Assembly (NCBI GenBank): GCA_903868845.1
Contig: CAIPWS010000010.1
Coordinates: 1-6,194 of the forward strand
DNA: 6,194 bases
Direction of reading: 5' to 3'
Source of the DNA: an uncultured bacterium
GTDB taxonomy: Bacteria; Patescibacteriota; Minisyncoccia; Phycocordibacterales; PALSA-1337
The notes under the pieces are model-generated. The model saw only the letters and a program-made list of their open reading frames with translations. It had not been told where the DNA came from and made no database searches. Made by a program: the position numbers and the translations under genes. Position 1 is the first letter of the stretch; each line of letters begins with the position of its first letter. Shown here one piece after another: positions 1-6,194 of the stretch.

Positions 1-171
1 AAGACGTATTTGGAGTTCTACAACACCAAAAGAGTTCACTGTGCTTTCAACAACAAGCTCACACCACTTGAAGTATTAACCAAGTCAGATTATTATATGT
101 CTAAATTACCAGCAGAGTGCAGAAATGGGTGGGGTTATTCAGACACTTGCATTTTTAAAATAGAGGTGTAG
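1..171 (+). CDS. Transposase C-terminus (integrase/rve-type), 5' truncated by the window edge
   Basis: The frame is open from base 1 and stops at TAG 169-171, giving the last 56 residues of a longer protein. The segment YLEFYNTKRVHCAFNNKLTP followed by LEVL resembles the end of the integrase catalytic core in IS3/IS481-type transposases. In that family a Y-N-x-x-R-x-H-x-A-L/F run is followed by a TP-x-E motif. Family members cut and join element ends with a DDE active site. The D, D and most E-region residues would lie left of the window, so activity cannot be judged. Residues 27-56 (TKSDYYMSKL onward) are a tail I do not recognise. A contig starting inside a transposase is what an assembly break at a repeated insertion sequence looks like. 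I could not locate the element's right inverted repeat. Confidence 0.75.
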   Translation, partial: KTYLEFYNTKRVHCAFNNKLTPLEVLTKSDYYMSKLPAECRNGWGYSDTCIFKIEV

Positions 172-632: not shown

Positions 633-1841
633 ATGAAAGACACACAAATAAAGAAACTCCTTGAAGCCGAGAAGAAACGACAAAAGAAAGTCATAAACCT
701 TATTGCTTCTGAAAATTTTGTGTCTGCGGATGTGTTGGAAGCGCTTGGTTCAGAACTAACAAATAAATACGCAGAAGGGTATTCTGGCAAAAGATATTAC
801 GGTGGTAACGAGATAGTCGATAAGGTTGAAGATCTTTGTATCGAACGTGCATTGAAACTTTTTGGTCTTGATGCAAATAAATGGCACGTCAATGTTCAAG
901 CGCTCTCTGGTTCACCTGCAAACTTGGCTGTGTATGTCGGTGTTTTGGGTTTGAAAAATGATGGCCAACCACCAAAGATCATGGGTATGTCACTCGATCA
1001 TGGCGGTCACCTTACTCACGGTCACAAAGTTTCTGCTACTGGAAAATTTTTCACACAGGTTCCTTACGGTCTAGATCCGAAGACTGAGATGCTTAACTAT
1101 GTACAGCTTCGTGAGATAGCCATGAAAGAGAAGCCGGCTATTATCGTGGCAGGTTATACAGCATATCCACGTCGTATAGATTGGGCCAAGATGCGTGAGA
1201 TTGCCGATGCTTGCGGAGCATTACTCATGGTTGATATGTCACACATAGCTGGTCTTGTGGCTGGCGGGGTATATCCAGCTCCATTTCCATATGCCGATAT
1301 TGTGACCACGACTACTCATAAGACTTTGCGTGGTCCTAGGTCAGCACTTATATTTGTTCGCAAAGACGCCCGTGAACTTGATAAGAAAATAGACAAGGCT
1401 GTTTTTCCTGGTCTGCAGGGTGGTCCTCATGAAAACCAGATCGCTGCAGTTGCTGTTGCCTTGAAAGAAGCTGCAAGTCCAGCTTTCAAGAAATACGCAC
1501 AACAGGTTGTGAAAAATGCCGCAGCCCTAGCTGACGAGCTCCATAATCGTGGTTGGAGACTTATTTCTGGTGGAACAGATTCACATCTTATTCTTATAGA
1601 TACTTGGAATTCCGGTGTGAAAAATGCCAAAGGTGCTGGCGCTGTGCCAGGTAAAGTTGCCAGTGATAAACTTGAGAAAGTTGGCATCATTGTAAACAAA
1701 AATGGCATCCCATTTGATACGAGATCACCAGTTGATCCATCCGGAATTCGCATTGGTTCTGCCGCAGAGACAACTCGTGGCAAAAAAGAGAAAGATTTCC
1801 GTGCTATTGCAAAGAAGATAGATGAGGTGTTGAGGAAGTAG
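633..1841 (+). CDS. glyA: Serine hydroxymethyltransferase
   Basis: This PLP enzyme interconverts serine plus tetrahydrofolate with glycine plus 5,10-methylene-tetrahydrofolate, supplying one-carbon units in the cytoplasm. The 402-residue product is near the usual bacterial length of about 410-420. Signature segments in order are the N-terminal NLIASEN (22-28), the EGYSGKRYYGG cofactor/dimer loop (49-58), the LSGSPAN PLP-phosphate region (91-97), LDHGGHLTHG (121-130) and VDMSHIAGLVA (200-210; Asp201 and His204 contact PLP). TTTTHKTLRGPR (225-236) carries the Schiff-base lysine Lys230, and GIRIG (371-375) carries the substrate-carboxylate arginine Arg373. The near-C-terminal PA-x-TTRG motif reads AAETTRG, a mild variant. 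ATG 633 is chosen because the family N-terminus starts here and a -10-like box lies 6 bases upstream. It is 60 bases upstream of argS on the same strand, but argS seems to have its own promoter. Complete and apparently functional. Confidence 0.97.
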   Translation: MKDTQIKKLLEAEKKRQKKVINLIASENFVSADVLEALGSELTNKYAEGYSGKRYYGGNEIVDKVEDLCIERALKLFGLDANKWHVNVQALSGSPANLAVYVGVLGLKNDGQPPKIMGMSLDHGGHLTHGHKVSATGKFFTQVPYGLDPKTEMLNYVQLREIAMKEKPAIIVAGYTAYPRRIDWAKMREIADACGALLMVDMSHIAGLVAGGVYPAPFPYADIVTTTTHKTLRGPRSALIFVRKDARELDKKIDKAVFPGLQGGPHENQIAAVAVALKEAASPAFKKYAQQVVKNAAALADELHNRGWRLISGGTDSHLILIDTWNSGVKNAKGAGAVPGKVASDKLEKVGIIVNKNGIPFDTRSPVDPSGIRIGSAAETTRGKKEKDFRAIAKKIDEVLRK

Positions 1842-1886
1842 GGATATTTGATTTTAAACAATTTGGCGGATTTTTCGTCTACTTTC

Positions 1887-1895
1887 TGCTACAAT
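1887..1895 (+). promoter_or_regulatory. argS extended -10 promoter, leaderless spacing
   Basis: TGCTACAAT (1887-1895) is an extended -10 element (TG-N-TACAAT). It ends 6 bases before the ATG at 1902, so the transcript would start at about the start codon. No convincing -35 box lies at 16-18 bases; TTGGCG at 1863-1868 is too distant (21-base spacing). The extended TG motif can compensate for a missing -35. There is no Shine-Dalgarno sequence. Confidence 0.5.
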
Positions 1896-1901
1896 CATCC
1901 C

Positions 1902-3725
1902 ATGAAAGACGAAATCATAAAGATATTGCAAAAAACCGTTGAGCCACTTGGTATTGCGGCTATTTCGGTCGCCTTAGATTTTCCAGAAAATGCCGAACAT
2001 GGTGACTATACTAGCAATGTAGCTATGACAAATGCCAAAAGACTTGGACTAAAGCCGGTAGAATTGGCGACGAAGATTGTGGCAGATTTCGATAAACTTG
2101 TAAACAAGTCATCGCTTAAGGGTCTTATAAAATCTGTCGCGGTGGCTGGACCTGGATTTATTAACTTTACTTTGACTGCTGAAGCAGTTTCGAAAAATGT
2201 TCAGGAGATTTCAAAGGAATTAAACGGTTCAGAAGGCTCAAAGGGGCAAATTTCAAATATTGGTGCTGGTAAAAAAGTTTTGATAGAGTACTCATCTCCG
2301 AATATTGCCAAACCTTTTACAGTCGGACACTTGAGGTCAACTATCATAGGTGATTCTATTGCACGCATTTTGAGTGCTACTGGATATTCTGTTATTCGTG
2401 ACAACCATCTTGGTGACTGGGGGACACAGTTTGGAAAGCTTTTGGTGGCGATAGAAAAGTGGGGGGATGAATTTGGCGGACTCGATGGTATCAAAAAGAG
2501 TGAGAATCCTATCAAGATACTTGTTGATCTTTATGTGAAGTTTCATGATGAGGTTGCAATTATGGAGGATTCTGAAGACGAAAAATTGAAAACTGAGGCG
2601 GAAGAACTCGTCACATTGGCTCGTGTCAAGTCTAAAATATTGGAATCTGGCAAAGATCCGATAATTTCTGAAATTTGGAAGGTCTGTGTAGATCTTTCCA
2701 TGCATGAGTTTGCCCTTATTTATAAGAGACTTGGTGTGTCATTCGATCCAAAGAGAGGAGATACTCAGATTGGTGAAAGTTTCTTTGTGACACCATACAA
2801 GATCAATCCAGTGAGAGATGCTCTAAATGCCAAAAACCTTTTGAAAGATAGTGAAGGTGCAAAGGTGGTATTTTTCGGTAGTGAAGATCCAAAGTTATGG
2901 AAACTTCCTCCGCTTATAGTAGAGAAGAGTGATGGTACATCCATATATGCCACTCGTGATTTGGCCGCAGATTTATATCGAATCAATACATACGGTAAGG
3001 GTTTGATACTCATAAACGAAGTTGGTGCTGAACAAAATCTTTACTTCAAACAACTTATAGAAACTGAGACTATGCTCGGTTGGTTTACGAAAGGTCAGAG
3101 ACTTCATATCGCACACGGACTTTACAGGTTCAAGGATGGCAAGATGTCTACAAGAAAAGGTAAGGTCATCTGGCTGGGTGATATTCTGGACGAAGCAGTT
3201 ACACGTGCTTCCAAGATAAATGCTGATAGTGCCAATGATGTGGCTGTAGCTGCGATAAAGTTCAATGATCTTAAGCGTGACAGTATACAAGATATAGTTT
3301 TTGATTGGGATGAGATGATGAATATGACTGGTGACTCTGGACCATATCTACAATATTCATGCGTCCGTGCTAGAGCGGTAGTAGAGAAGGCAAAAGGCCT
3401 CGGAATATCGGCAGACACAAGTGGTGCGCGACCAAATATCCCTCAACTCGATCTTCTCGAGAGATACCTTTTACGCTTCACTCACACAGTTGAATTTGCT
3501 GGTGCTTCATATAAACCAAATGTAATTGCGAATTATCTTATAAACCTCGCCTCACTTTTCAATAGTTTTTATGCGCAGGTAACTATTGCTGACAAAGATA
3601 GTGTAACCGGTGCAGGTTCTCAAGATTCTGGTGCGGCCTACAAGGTTGCGGTGACACAAGTATTTGCCGATGTTCTAGAAAGGGGATTGGACTTGCTTGG
3701 TATCAAAGTTCCAGAGAAGATGTAA
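1902..3725 (+). CDS. argS: Arginyl-tRNA synthetase (class I)
   Basis: The enzyme charges tRNA-Arg with arginine using ATP, in the cytoplasm. The 607-residue product contains the expected parts in order. First comes the N-terminal Arg-tRNA-synthetase additional domain with AEHGDYTSNVA (31-41). The catalytic Rossmann core follows, with EYSSPNIAKPF (129-139) and VGHLRSTIIGD (141-151, the HIGH-equivalent). The ATP-site loop is GKMSTRKG (413-420, the KMSKS-equivalent). The C-terminal DALR-type anticodon-binding domain begins about GPYLQYSCVRARAV (480-493) and ends GLDLLGIKVPEKM, as is typical. The first HIGH histidine is Thr140 here; as I recall, Ser or Thr at this place occurs in other bacterial ArgRS, so it is not a defect. 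I chose ATG 1902 over a TTG at 1848. The upstream 18 residues do not match the family, and an extended -10 box would lie inside them. Complete. Confidence 0.97.
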   Translation: MKDEIIKILQKTVEPLGIAAISVALDFPENAEHGDYTSNVAMTNAKRLGLKPVELATKIVADFDKLVNKSSLKGLIKSVAVAGPGFINFTLTAEAVSKNVQEISKELNGSEGSKGQISNIGAGKKVLIEYSSPNIAKPFTVGHLRSTIIGDSIARILSATGYSVIRDNHLGDWGTQFGKLLVAIEKWGDEFGGLDGIKKSENPIKILVDLYVKFHDEVAIMEDSEDEKLKTEAEELVTLARVKSKILESGKDPIISEIWKVCVDLSMHEFALIYKRLGVSFDPKRGDTQIGESFFVTPYKINPVRDALNAKNLLKDSEGAKVVFFGSEDPKLWKLPPLIVEKSDGTSIYATRDLAADLYRINTYGKGLILINEVGAEQNLYFKQLIETETMLGWFTKGQRLHIAHGLYRFKDGKMSTRKGKVIWLGDILDEAVTRASKINADSANDVAVAAIKFNDLKRDSIQDIVFDWDEMMNMTGDSGPYLQYSCVRARAVVEKAKGLGISADTSGARPNIPQLDLLERYLLRFTHTVEFAGASYKPNVIANYLINLASLFNSFYAQVTIADKDSVTGAGSQDSGAAYKVAVTQVFADVLERGLDLLGIKVPEKM

Positions 3726-3761: not shown

Positions 3762-3768
3762 TGTGCGA

Positions 3769-4245
3769 ATGATTCAATTCACCGCACAACAATTTGAAGA
3801 AATTAAGTCAAAAGGCGAAATATTTTATAAAACGCTTAAGGATGTTTATTGCCCGTATTTAAAATGTAAGATTTATTTCAATTCTCAAGGATTGGAGCAT
3901 TTGAAATTTAAACAAAGGGAAAAGACTAGACTAGAACAAGATCAATACATGCGTTTCAAACTGATTGGACTCGCACCAGAGGTTTTGAAATGTTCATATA
4001 CGGTTCAAGGTATTTTGGAAACAAAGAGATTTGAACGAATTAGAGTGAATAGTAGAACTGAAACAATTTTAAAACCAGTCAGTTATTATGAATTTATTGC
4101 CGTTATAAAAAGAAATAGAATCAAGGTCATAACCAAGCAGATTGATGGTGGTAATGTATTTTTCTGGAGCATTATCCCATTTTGGGGAATGGATACGAGT
4201 ACGATGACAAGATTGTTACATGAGGGTACTCCAGAAGAAGATTAG
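3769..4245 (+). CDS. Hypothetical protein, possible RelE/colicin-like nuclease family
   Basis: The product has 158 residues. It is mixed alpha/beta, strongly basic in its middle, with no signal peptide or membrane segment. Visible landmarks are KCKIYFNSQGLEHLKFKQRE (32-51, with His44), a helix RFKLIGLAPEVL (62-73), and a C-terminal block IKVITKQIDGGNVFFWSIIP (118-137). This order resembles proteins of CPR bacteria that I associate with the PBECR (phage Barnase-EndoU-colicin E5/D-RelE-like) nuclease superfamily. That assignment is from recall of pattern only, and I cannot name catalytic residues. No antitoxin-like partner gene is adjacent, so a toxin role is unsupported. The gene is visibly more AT-rich than glyA and argS. 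Start ATG 3769 is preferred to GTG 3763 because of the promoter spacing. It is separated from argS by 43 bases and followed by a terminator. Confidence 0.8.
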   Translation: MIQFTAQQFEEIKSKGEIFYKTLKDVYCPYLKCKIYFNSQGLEHLKFKQREKTRLEQDQYMRFKLIGLAPEVLKCSYTVQGILETKRFERIRVNSRTETILKPVSYYEFIAVIKRNRIKVITKQIDGGNVFFWSIIPFWGMDTSTMTRLLHEGTPEED

Positions 4246-4585: not shown

Positions 4586-5359
4586 ATGAAGAATAAGATT
4601 GAATGGAAACAGATGGGTCAAGTCTTGGCCACGGTTGTGAAGTTGTTCACCAACATCACTGCCGTGTTCAAAAAGATTGCGGTCGGGCCGGAAATCCTCG
4701 AATGGCTCGTCGAGGACGGCAAGGAGTTCTTCGAATCCAAGCTCACCGAGCTTGGTCAGGAATTCCTGAAGACGATCAATGCCAAGAATCCTGATCGTGT
4801 CAAAATGATCGGGTGGTGGGAAGCCTTCTATAAAAAGCACTTTGGCATTAACGTCAGCCTCTCGGGGATTCAGATCCCTGATCGACCGGCGGTAGGCAAG
4901 TGGCGGCTTCTCATTCTGGTCCCGGGTCTCACCAACAATTGTGTTTACGACGTGCTACAGAAGCACTTCACGTGTTGGCGATATACGGAAGATCTAGATG
5001 CGGGTGTACCCGTTAATGAACGTGACCCAAGCAAGATTGGCGCATACGCAATTTGGGTTCGTGACGTCATCGAAGCTGATGATTGTCACAAAAACAAATC
5101 GGCCAACATGGTTGCTGCAGAACGTCCGGTGCTCAAAACTGAGACACTGTTGGAGCGGATGATTCATGAGCTGGTGTATTTCTTGGAGACTGATGGTCAC
5201 TTAGACACCAGTCATTGGACACTTTGCTCTGGTTCGCGCAGTGCTGGCGGCAATGTCCCGGACGCCAACTGGGGTGGCGGTCGGTTCCTGATCAATTGGT
5301 TCAGCACTGACTGTCGGATCGGCCGCCGGCGTCCGCGTGAGGTGATTTCTTTGGTTTGA
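4586..5359 (+). CDS. DGR target (variable) protein
   Basis: The 257-residue product has a C-terminus that is the DGR variable region. Residues 1-80 form an amphipathic, probably helical part (QVLATVVKLFTNITAVFKKI, then LEWLVEDGKEFFESKLTELG) with no signal peptide. The middle (107-205) has a recognisable run: LLILVPG (108-114), CWRYTEDLD (130-138), IGAYAIWVRDVIEADD (151-166) and LLERMIHELVYFLE (189-202). I recall this arrangement in uncharacterised Parcubacteria DGR targets. Residues 216-255 come from the VR; the scaffold NVP-x-ANW (223-229) and F-x-INWF (234-239) stays constant while neighbouring residues vary. A C-type-lectin-like fold would be usual for DGR targets but is not shown here. 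It probably binds variable ligands; none can be named. ATG 4586 is supported by GGAGG 9 bases upstream. The gene is visibly more GC-rich than its neighbours, suggesting transfer. A terminator follows. Confidence 0.9.
   Translation: MKNKIEWKQMGQVLATVVKLFTNITAVFKKIAVGPEILEWLVEDGKEFFESKLTELGQEFLKTINAKNPDRVKMIGWWEAFYKKHFGINVSLSGIQIPDRPAVGKWRLLILVPGLTNNCVYDVLQKHFTCWRYTEDLDAGVPVNERDPSKIGAYAIWVRDVIEADDCHKNKSANMVAAERPVLKTETLLERMIHELVYFLETDGHLDTSHWTLCSGSRSAGGNVPDANWGGGRFLINWFSTDCRIGRRRPREVISLV
5230..5350 (+). repeat. DGR variable repeat (VR)
   Basis: This 121-base stretch at the 3' end of the target gene aligns without gaps to the template repeat at 5611-5731 (offset 381). They differ at 5241, 5247, 5261, 5273, 5274, 5277, 5282, 5283, 5289, 5304, 5312, 5313, 5319, 5322, 5324, 5325, 5343 and 5344, where the TR has A in every case. 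At 5328 the VR has G where the TR has T. By my count the TR has 33 A, of which 18 are changed, against 1 of 88 non-A positions. The changes alter 14 of 40 codons, including Asn to Gly, Asp, Ser, Cys, Ile and Arg. The conserved, GC-rich GCGTCCGCGTGAGG at 5329-5342 is a candidate IMH (initiation of mutagenic homing). Confidence 0.95.
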
Positions 5360-5380
5360 TACCCTCAAACCTCGCACCTC
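5339..5380 (+). promoter_or_regulatory. Hairpin at the 3' end of the VR, candidate retrohoming element
   Basis: GGTTTGA (5353-5359, containing the target's TGA stop) pairs perfectly with TCAAACC (5365-5371) around loop TACCC. An outer stem GAGGTG (5339-5344) pairs with CACCTC (5375-5380). An alternative pairing is GTGATT 5342-5347 with AATCAC 5381-5386. In the Bordetella phage DGR a hairpin just downstream of the VR stimulates homing, and this one sits in the same place, 2 bases after the VR. The outer stem needs TG at 5343-5344, which is AA in the TR. Confidence 0.65.
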
Positions 5381-5388
5381 AATCACTT

Positions 5389-5427
5389 GTGGCTCGCCTT
5401 CCGTTGCGGAGGCGGGCCACATTTTTT
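5389..5427 (+). terminator. Rho-independent terminator of the target gene
   Basis: GTGGCTCGCCT (5389-5399) pairs with AGGCGGGCCAC (5410-5420) over 11 bp with one T-G wobble, then come A and six T (5422-5427). It ends the target transcript before the TR, so the TR RNA is probably not made from the target promoter. Confidence 0.9.
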
Positions 5428-5453
5428 ATAATATATATGGCTGTTAAGCTGGC

Positions 5454-5482
5454 TTGATTTGTTTTCATTTCGAAAATATATT
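5454..5482 (+). promoter_or_regulatory. Probable promoter of the TR RNA
   Basis: TTGATT (5454-5459) and TATATT (5477-5482) have exactly 17 bases between them and lie just after the target's terminator. Transcription would start near 5489. A second -10-like TATACT (5526-5531) lies downstream but has no good -35. Either start would produce an RNA that covers the TR. Confidence 0.6.
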
Positions 5483-5610
5483 GAGATGGCAGTTTGCCAG
5501 AAAAAAGAAATTGCTTGTCTGATTTTATACTAAGCTCGCAGTACCACGGTAAAAACGCAGAGGACTTTGCAAAAGGTTCTTGGTGATATGGACGAAAGCA
5601 GACAAAAAGA

Positions 5611-5731
5611 TGGTTCGCGCAATGCTGACGGCAATGTCCCGAACGCCAACTGGAATGACGGTAAGTTCCAGATCAATTGGTTCAACACTGACAATCGGAA
5701 CGACAACCTGCGTCCGCGTGAGGAAATTTCT
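5611..5731 (+). repeat. DGR template repeat (TR)
   Basis: This is the 121-base invariant copy of the VR, starting TGGTTCGCGCA and ending GAGGAAATTTCT. Read in the target's frame it is full of AAT/AAC/GAC codons (Asn and Asp) at the positions that vary, as expected of a template tuned for adenine mutagenesis. AAY codons give 15 possible amino acids when both A vary, and no stops. Homology to the VR stops sharply at both ends. The codons adjoining upstream (KD) do not match the target (CS). Confidence 0.95.
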
Positions 5732-5739
5732 CACAACAG

Positions 5740-5761
5740 AGGGCTTTTGTGGCCCTTTTTT
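5740..5761 (+). terminator. Terminator of the TR RNA
   Basis: AGGGC (5740-5744) pairs with GCCCT (5752-5756) around TTTTGTG, followed by T 5756-5761. Weak flanking pairs can extend the stem slightly. It lies only 9 bases after the TR. On the minus strand there is no T tract, so it would not end the avd transcript. Confidence 0.7.
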
Positions 5762-5773
5762 GTGTTAAGTCTT

Positions 5774-6169
5774 CTAGCTACGTGTTACGTAATTTATCCA
5801 ATTGGTTGCCTCTCTGGATATATCAAAAAGTTTTACAGATAGGCGCAAATAAGTTTTGTCATCAATGATTTGCAATTCATTTTCTGTTCTAACAAGATTT
5901 TGTAAGACACCTATTTTTACGCGTAATTTATCCAATGTCGGTTTCTTTAGAATTTTTACTTGGAATGATCCTTCTATGGCTAAAGACAACATGTCTATAC
6001 ATAACTTTTCTATCTCCAGATGTATGCCCAGTTTGTTATTTTTCGATAGTTTTTGACCAGTGTTATAAATGTCTTTGTGTAGTAATCTTATGCTATGGAT
6101 AATTGGGACAATTTTACCACTGCCAATATTGCTTTTGGAGACATTTGTGATATTAGCGATAGCGTCCAA
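5774..6169 (-). CDS. avd: Avd-like DGR accessory protein, start possibly outside the window
   Basis: Avd forms a pentameric four-helix-bundle ring that binds the DGR reverse transcriptase and the TR RNA and is needed for mutagenic homing. The product has four predicted helices, at about residues 21-40 (IVPIIHSIRLLHKDIYNTGQ), 44-70, 76-101 and 103-128. They carry the family spacing: a GIHLEIEKLCIDML segment (48-61), TLDKLRVKIGVLQNLVRTEN (78-97), and DKTYLRLSVKLFDISRE followed by TNWI (104-125). The TTG start at 6169 has no Shine-Dalgarno. The frame stays open to the window edge (through 6193), so the true start may be upstream. Residues 1-19 do not look like Avd and could be an extension or wrongly included. 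The gene is AT-rich, unlike the target, and runs opposite to it, its stop 13 bases from the TR terminator. A related possibility is the 23S rRNA intervening-sequence protein family, same fold; the TR next door favours Avd. Confidence 0.82.
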   Translation of the reverse strand: MDAIANITNVSKSNIGSGKIVPIIHSIRLLHKDIYNTGQKLSKNNKLGIHLEIEKLCIDMLSLAIEGSFQVKILKKPTLDKLRVKIGVLQNLVRTENELQIIDDKTYLRLSVKLFDISREATNWINYVTRS

Positions 6170-6194
6170 ATTGATGCTGGAAGCGTCGGGGGGG

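Follow-up and report, generated by a model that had tools for sequence, protein, structure and literature searches.

A diversity-generating retroelement in Patescibacteria with Avd and reverse transcriptase genes likely co-switched by one shared G tract

Introduction

The closest described relative of the locus reported here is the diversity-generating retroelement (DGR) of Bordetella phage BPP-1 (mtd, avd, TR, brt). In BPP-1, repair is reported to fall to about 1e-9 when bRT, Avd or the template repeat (TR) is lost, with a spacer 3' of TR recruiting the complex (PMC12875486), and the target is marked by IMH together with a hairpin that follows it (PMC3240598). DGRs of CPR bacteria are also already known, and the locus resembles those described as DGR clade 2 (PMC8144416) in being cell-encoded, in its host lineage and in a target lacking a recognized domain. 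How DGRs avoid destroying good variants is an open question, and their regulation in the wild is called an 'exciting frontier' in PMC12875486. Loci of this kind in relatives further resemble the poly-G contingency loci of Campylobacter and Neisseria: a run of 7-12 G stands early in the coding sequence, its length sets whether the frame is open or closed, and the tract is kept as its phase varies. Within the limited set of literature searched, we found no description of a G tract in a DGR: the consulted passages of PMC8144416 make no mention of Avd orientation, phase variation, homopolymers or frameshifts, those of PMC6642488 make no mention of phase variation, and the matching text in PMC6851277, PMC12954397, PMC10053308, PMC11792537 and PMC12926258 concerns other matters or consists of references.

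Here we analyzed a 6,194-nucleotide stretch of DNA from an uncultured member of the Patescibacteriota (the window; Table 1), which is the entire contig C10 of an assembly of 732,696 bases in 148 contigs that is 66% complete. Like BPP-1, the window carries a variable repeat (VR) at the 3' end of a target gene, adenine-specific differences between VR and TR, and an Avd-like gene. Unlike BPP-1, Avd is reversed and divergent from the reverse transcriptase (RT) gene, a G tract lies at the Avd/RT start, the stem-loop after VR is not conserved, and a terminator-like hairpin stands behind TR, where BPP-1 has a spacer to brt (PMC12875486). We consider it quite probable, from sequence comparison, that the window locus is a DGR whose Avd and RT genes are co-switched by slippage of a single G run at their shared start.

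Table 1. Features of the window, with positions counted from its first nucleotide
Feature	Position	Strand	Basis or remark
Transposase-like fragment	1-171		Upstream gene, named by eye
Serine hydroxymethyltransferase	633-1841		Upstream gene
Arginyl-tRNA synthetase	1848-3725		Upstream gene
ORF without family above cut-off	3763-4245		Upstream gene
Target gene, 257 aa	4586-5359	+	ORF with 88 homologues; no Pfam/NCBIfam family above cut-off; predicted lectin-like C-terminal domain
Variable repeat (VR)	5230-5350	+	Repeat comparison; in 3' end of target ORF
Probable fixed template/target difference	5343-5344	+	TR/VR pairs of relatives and aligned proteins; close to VR 3' end, IMH-like position
Hairpin, 7-bp stem	5353-5371	+	Directly after VR, where BPP-1 has its stem-loop; lacks conservation among relatives
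Terminator-like hairpin	5388-5421	+	Beyond target gene
Template repeat (TR)	5611-5731	+	Repeat comparison
Terminator-like hairpin	5738-5758	+	Immediately 3' of TR
Avd-like gene	5774-6193	-	bAvd PF22296, NF033474 Avd, synteny; open to contig end
Predicted first 33 RT codons	6095-6194	+	ATG at 6095, antisense to Avd; inferred from relatives; open to contig end
G tract	6188-6194	+	7 G, then contig end; 9-10 G here in relatives L026, L027, L028, L031 and L032

Results

Adenine-specific repeats and a diversified target

The original prediction had described two gap-free 121-base copies lying 381 bases apart, and repeat comparison recovered both as VR and TR, which are 121 nt each, 84% identical and free of gaps, with starts 381 apart. 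Realignment returned the same counts that had been claimed: 18 of the 19 differences fall at TR adenines, such that 18 of 33 A are changed, whereas of the 88 bases that are not A just 1 is (Fisher p 1.3e-11). Twelve of the changed template adenines became G, four T and two C, and the sole non-A difference is a T>G at 5328. VR spans codons 215-255 of the 257-codon target ORF, and the predicted alteration of 14 residues around intact NVPxANW and INWF motifs was confirmed. A BLAST search of the 732,696-base assembly (66% complete) with the TR region found no copies besides VR and TR.

Closer inspection of the VR 3' end revealed that the last two adenine changes, at 5343 and 5344, turn codon 253 from GAA in TR to GTG in VR. 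The same GAA/GTG difference is present in the relatives L028 and L032, and residue 253 across 69 aligned proteins is V in 52, A in 14, T in 2, G in 1 and never E, suggesting that these two changes are probably a fixed template/target difference and not a product of mutagenesis. When they are left out, 16 of 31 template adenines are changed. The codon-253 difference is what one would expect of the IMH*/IMH difference (names from BPP-1) that ends a TR/VR pair.

We then compared the target protein with its homologues. A protein from ENA (P0001, encoded on a contig of 6177 b) equals the window protein at 214 of the 215 residues ahead of VR; in this protein-level comparison 17 of 40 VR residues (216-255) differ versus 1 of 215 before VR, and 15 of the 17 lie at codons with A in TR position 1 or 2. 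We read this pattern as recent diversification within one lineage. Among the 69 aligned proteins, columns at such codons were more variable than other VR columns (mean entropy 2.45 versus 1.12, p 1e-4). A target match was present in 12 of 53 genomes of the family, the window's own included, and a search of the genome contigs with the target protein gave no match. Structure-directed searches with the target reached a best E of 0.94 (PDB sequences) and 2.3 (Foldseek). The predicted C-terminal domain suggests that the target may be a lectin-like binding protein.

The Avd-like gene and the contig end

The ORF downstream of TR matched bAvd PF22296 (E 1.1e-7; 32.7 bits, below the cut-off of 40) and NF033474 Avd (E 6.9e-7; 29.5 bits, below the cut-off of 80), and a PDB sequence search with it returned nothing up to E 0.1. 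A PF22296 search of the window's own genome was silent, but so were its controls, and it therefore says nothing about absence. Its homologues, 44-86% identical, adjoin an RT or an RT remnant. We found no RT gene inside the window because the contig stops in the G run; this is the point at which the RT of relatives begins, and the RT of the window locus most plausibly sits just past the contig end. In agreement with this placement, the predicted RT ATG at 6095 faces an in-frame CAT (His) codon of Avd and relatives show equal geometry. In tract-bearing relatives, the Avd ATG is located past the tract.

Two RTs are encoded elsewhere in the window's genome (G000), on contigs C99 and C45. Because the start of C45, which reads GGGCTTAATAGTCAT in the RT sense, resembles the Avd/RT junctions of relatives, we considered whether C10 and C45 are two halves of one locus with the C45 RT (RT45) as the window's partner. 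We think this unlikely, given that an RT 75% identical to RT45 has its own Avd (L239, G024:C50) and that the window Avd resembles (58%) that of L026, from the same genome G024 and paired with another RT type. This third RT (L007:3948-4967, G000:C45) lies on a contig that starts with GGG and the shared junction motif in the RT sense and that probably broke at a G tract of its own; its neighbors resemble, by eye, a methylase and a small terminase subunit. The second RT, on C99 (L006:10593-11549 (-), 11603-11611 and 11880-12572), is DGR-like and is placed between PilC-like and prepilin-like genes, both named by eye. A C9 run (9 G in the RT sense) stands about 54 nt ahead of its ATG, and a 230-aa ORF upstream has an N-terminal part resembling DGR targets; we found no TR/VR pair or Avd near this RT.

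An Rfam search of the window gave no match, and we assessed hairpins around the repeats directly (Table 1). A stem of at least 6 follows VR in 7 of 67 loci, compared to 1 of 67 shuffled, and a stem of at least 6 lies within 45 nt of TR in 33 of 67 loci. Given the terminator-like hairpin behind TR, the template may be a separate short transcript that relies on another priming signal.

Complete cassettes in relatives

Among 12 wider stretches taken around target matches in other genomes of the family, five (L026, L027, L028, L031 and L032) hold Avd, RT and an adenine-specific pair, all in the gene order target>, TR>, <Avd, RT>. The profile of the relatives' RTs best matched PDB entry 8ub7 (E 2.7e-58; next match 5.1e-31), which we take to be the BPP-1 RT complex and which adds to the likeness with that system; in NCBIfam and PADLOC the RT matched RTs in general, and no match exceeded an NCBIfam cut-off. 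Scans for adenine-specific pairs found none in L024, L025, L029, L030, L033, L034 and L035, around the C99 RT (RT99) or in C45. A pooled TR/VR scan returned pairs in 63 of 91 loci, with 1120 of 1973 A changed versus 35 of 5376 other bases, a biased estimate since the scan score and filter favor A mismatches. Collectively, the reading of the window as a DGR, as originally put forward, is supported by the one-way A-specificity, the position of VR in the ORF 3' end, the Avd-like neighbor and the five same-family loci with homologous target, adenine-specific pair, Avd and RT in one order, as well as by the departure of P0001 from the window protein almost solely within VR.

Two of the relatives depart from the simple arrangement. 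L028 has two targets for its single TR, the second located after the RT, such that two VR genes flank Avd/RT (L028:7753-11051, G003:C15); about 7 kb upstream (L028:256-1258) is a second RT with a 13-G run and its own Avd and TR/VR pair (L228). L033 (8399-10020) carries an Avd 86% identical to that of the window beside an RT without its N-terminal half, and the tract is missing; its target end looks like unmutated template followed by a hairpin, and we read the locus as a decayed DGR.

A G tract at Avd/RT junctions

We gathered junction loci by Avd from 383 genomes of the class and by RT from GTDB and IMG/VR. An Avd-like match was present in 157 of the 383 class genomes, where weak matches may be other four-helix proteins, and the class loci analyzed are L037-L065. 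The RT samples are the best 80 of 531 GTDB relatives and the best 80 of 100 IMG/VR relatives, and the fractions given here describe these samples; the GTDB loci include Taylorbacteria, Moranbacteria, Nomurabacteria, Falkowbacteria, Uhrbacteria, Wolfebacteria, Yanofskybacteria and others. From 114 pairs, leaving out L094, L105, L125, L141 and L148, which lack a match to the 5' part of Avd, L039, whose junction contains an N, and duplicates, we obtained 103 non-redundant divergent junctions (5 family, 28 class, 66 GTDB and 4 IMG/VR).

A run of 7-12 G between the first conserved Avd and RT codons was found at 58 of the 103 junctions and at none of the other 45, with lengths of G7 in 3, G8 in 6, G9 in 16, G10 in 25, G11 in 7 and G12 in 1. 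Relatives hold the run inside contigs, with unique sequence on both sides. In the GTDB sample, 41 of 80 loci carried at least 7 G within about 130 nt 5' of the first matched RT residue, versus 0.06 expected from the six other G/C runs of at least 7 in 491,466 bases of the same loci; such a tract was present in 2 of 80 IMG/VR loci (L148 and L150). On an RT tree of 96 of the 103 loci (RT pieces below 250 aa were dropped), tract presence required 8 changes compared to 30.7 after shuffling (0 of 500 shuffles as low).

Across 15 genomes, chosen since the majority hold a tract locus, we counted 42 merged runs of at least 9 G, of which 17 were at Avd/RT or RT starts; 16 of the other 25 were examined by BLAST and showed no RT or Avd match. 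Runs of 9-15 G/C away from RT or Avd, several of them near contig ends, were observed at L226:1502, L227:1541, L231-L238, L240, L241 and L243-L245, and these perhaps mark other tract-variable genes.

Reading frames across the tract

We evaluated in silico whether each gene is in frame with an ATG across its junction. At tract-less loci an in-frame ATG was present for RT in 44 of 45, for Avd in 44 of 45 and for both in 43 of 45. At 57 tract loci, viral L150 being excluded, the assembled sequence placed RT in frame in 26, Avd in 15 and both in 13; when the tract was taken at -1, 0 or +1, RT opened in 56, Avd in 57 and both in one phase in 56 of the 57. Wherever each gene had one open phase, the Avd and RT phases agreed (32 of 32 loci), and L028 offered no ATG that opens its RT, whichever of the three phases was taken. 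When the flanks of the 58 tract loci were shuffled, the means were 30 for RT and 24 for Avd, and both genes opened in one phase at a mean of 10.1 loci (maximum 22) compared to 57 observed.

This agreement is in part due to the antisense geometry of the two start codons. In 57 of 58 tract loci the Avd ATG faces a codon in the RT reading frame, and 43 of 58 have, 5' of the tract, an ATG that faces a codon in the Avd reading frame; with starts that overlap in this way, one tract can serve both genes. When one base was removed or added mid-gap at the tract-less loci, both genes stayed open in 20 (-1) or 26 (+1) of 45, compared to 43 unchanged, a control that is uninformative because many tract-less start codons do not overlap.

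In a sample of 126 Avd proteins (6 plus the best 120 of 494 database relatives), Pro-Pro occurs among the first 40 residues of 39. In five groups the Avd bodies are 98-100% identical, yet some entries carry a tract-coded N-terminus and others start internally: P0123 with P0117/P0118, P0100 with P0097, P0126 with P0157/P0159, P0091 with P0093/P0094, and P0132 with P0179. These two forms, as database sequences, could stem from different gene callers or contig ends.

Discussion

We propose that RT and Avd would make DNA from TR RNA, erring at its adenines, and that the mutated copy would replace VR, while replication slippage in the tract would shift the frames of both genes together. Since both frames would shift at once, target mutation would be confined to a subset of a clone's cells, and a clone would consist of a few diversifying cells among many in which the target is fixed. 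If mutagenesis requires RT as well as Avd, as it does in BPP-1, it would stop whenever the tract closes one of the two genes. At the nine cellular loci with an RT ATG past the tract (L083, L089, L092, L115, L124, L126, L130, L142 and L144), only Avd would switch. Several observations weigh against the switch: 45 of 103 junctions have no tract, no phase opens the RT of L028, the window's own tract is cut by the contig end, and the Avd scores of the window stay under the curated cut-offs. More broadly, we consider it probable that Patescibacteria have placed a contingency switch on a mutator, in which one G tract, read oppositely by overlapping RT and Avd starts, turns the DGR on and off as a unit.

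The tract might instead be a programmed slippage site: by slipping there, RNA polymerase or the ribosome would supply each cell with small, constant amounts of RT and Avd, with no switching of tract length in the DNA. We consider this unlikely, although one observation favors it directly: of the 49 loci in which Avd has just one open phase, 28 require an identical shift (-1) to open, matching a fixed slippage requirement, and this bias, unexpected under random drift, counts against the switch reading. A fixed site should nevertheless keep one phase, whereas 10 of these loci are open as assembled and 11 need +1; moreover, phase carries no phylogenetic signal (21 changes over 47 tips versus a shuffled mean of 18.6), and identical Avd bodies occur in two forms. 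We find it harder still to believe that the DGR is constantly expressed, with the tract serving as promoter spacing or DNA structure between divergent genes and translation beginning from unusual codons past it. In favor of such an arrangement, 10 of 58 tract loci (one of them viral) have an ATG for RT beyond the tract, but the remaining 48 of 58 have no in-frame RT ATG past the tract as assembled, ATG-started frames cross the tract in one phase for both genes far more often than in shuffles (57 versus a mean of 10), and both genes are open across the junction at L048, which has overlapping starts and no tract, and at L050, where the tract is degenerate.

Finally, the window could hold no working DGR at all, its repeats being left from an ancient duplication or from a cassette that has decayed and lacks an RT, and its terminal G run a sequencing artefact. 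The window does lack an RT, the loss of the RT N-terminal half and tract in L033 shows that decay occurs, and a G run at the end of a contig may be artefactual; set against the A-specificity of the TR/VR differences, the confinement of P0001 divergence to VR, the five complete relatives and an equal G run inside relatives' contigs amid unique sequence, this explanation is scarcely credible.

The preferred reading, a frame switch shared by RT and Avd, is like the poly-G contingency loci of Campylobacter and Neisseria but unlike them in using a single tract for two divergent, antisense-overlapping genes and in a predicted switched product that is a mutator, not a surface molecule or methylase. 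DGRs in CPR are known; DGR mutator genes with a G tract are new within the limited literature searched. The tract may also account for contig breaks at the RT start (the window, C45 and L148) and for Avd entries with shortened starts. If the proposal is true, a heritable, reversible frame switch of RT and Avd would answer, for a large uncultured bacterial group, how good variants are spared, and tract slippage and A-specific retrohoming would be two kinds of localized hypermutation placed in series at one locus. These bacteria would then gamble even on whether to mutate.
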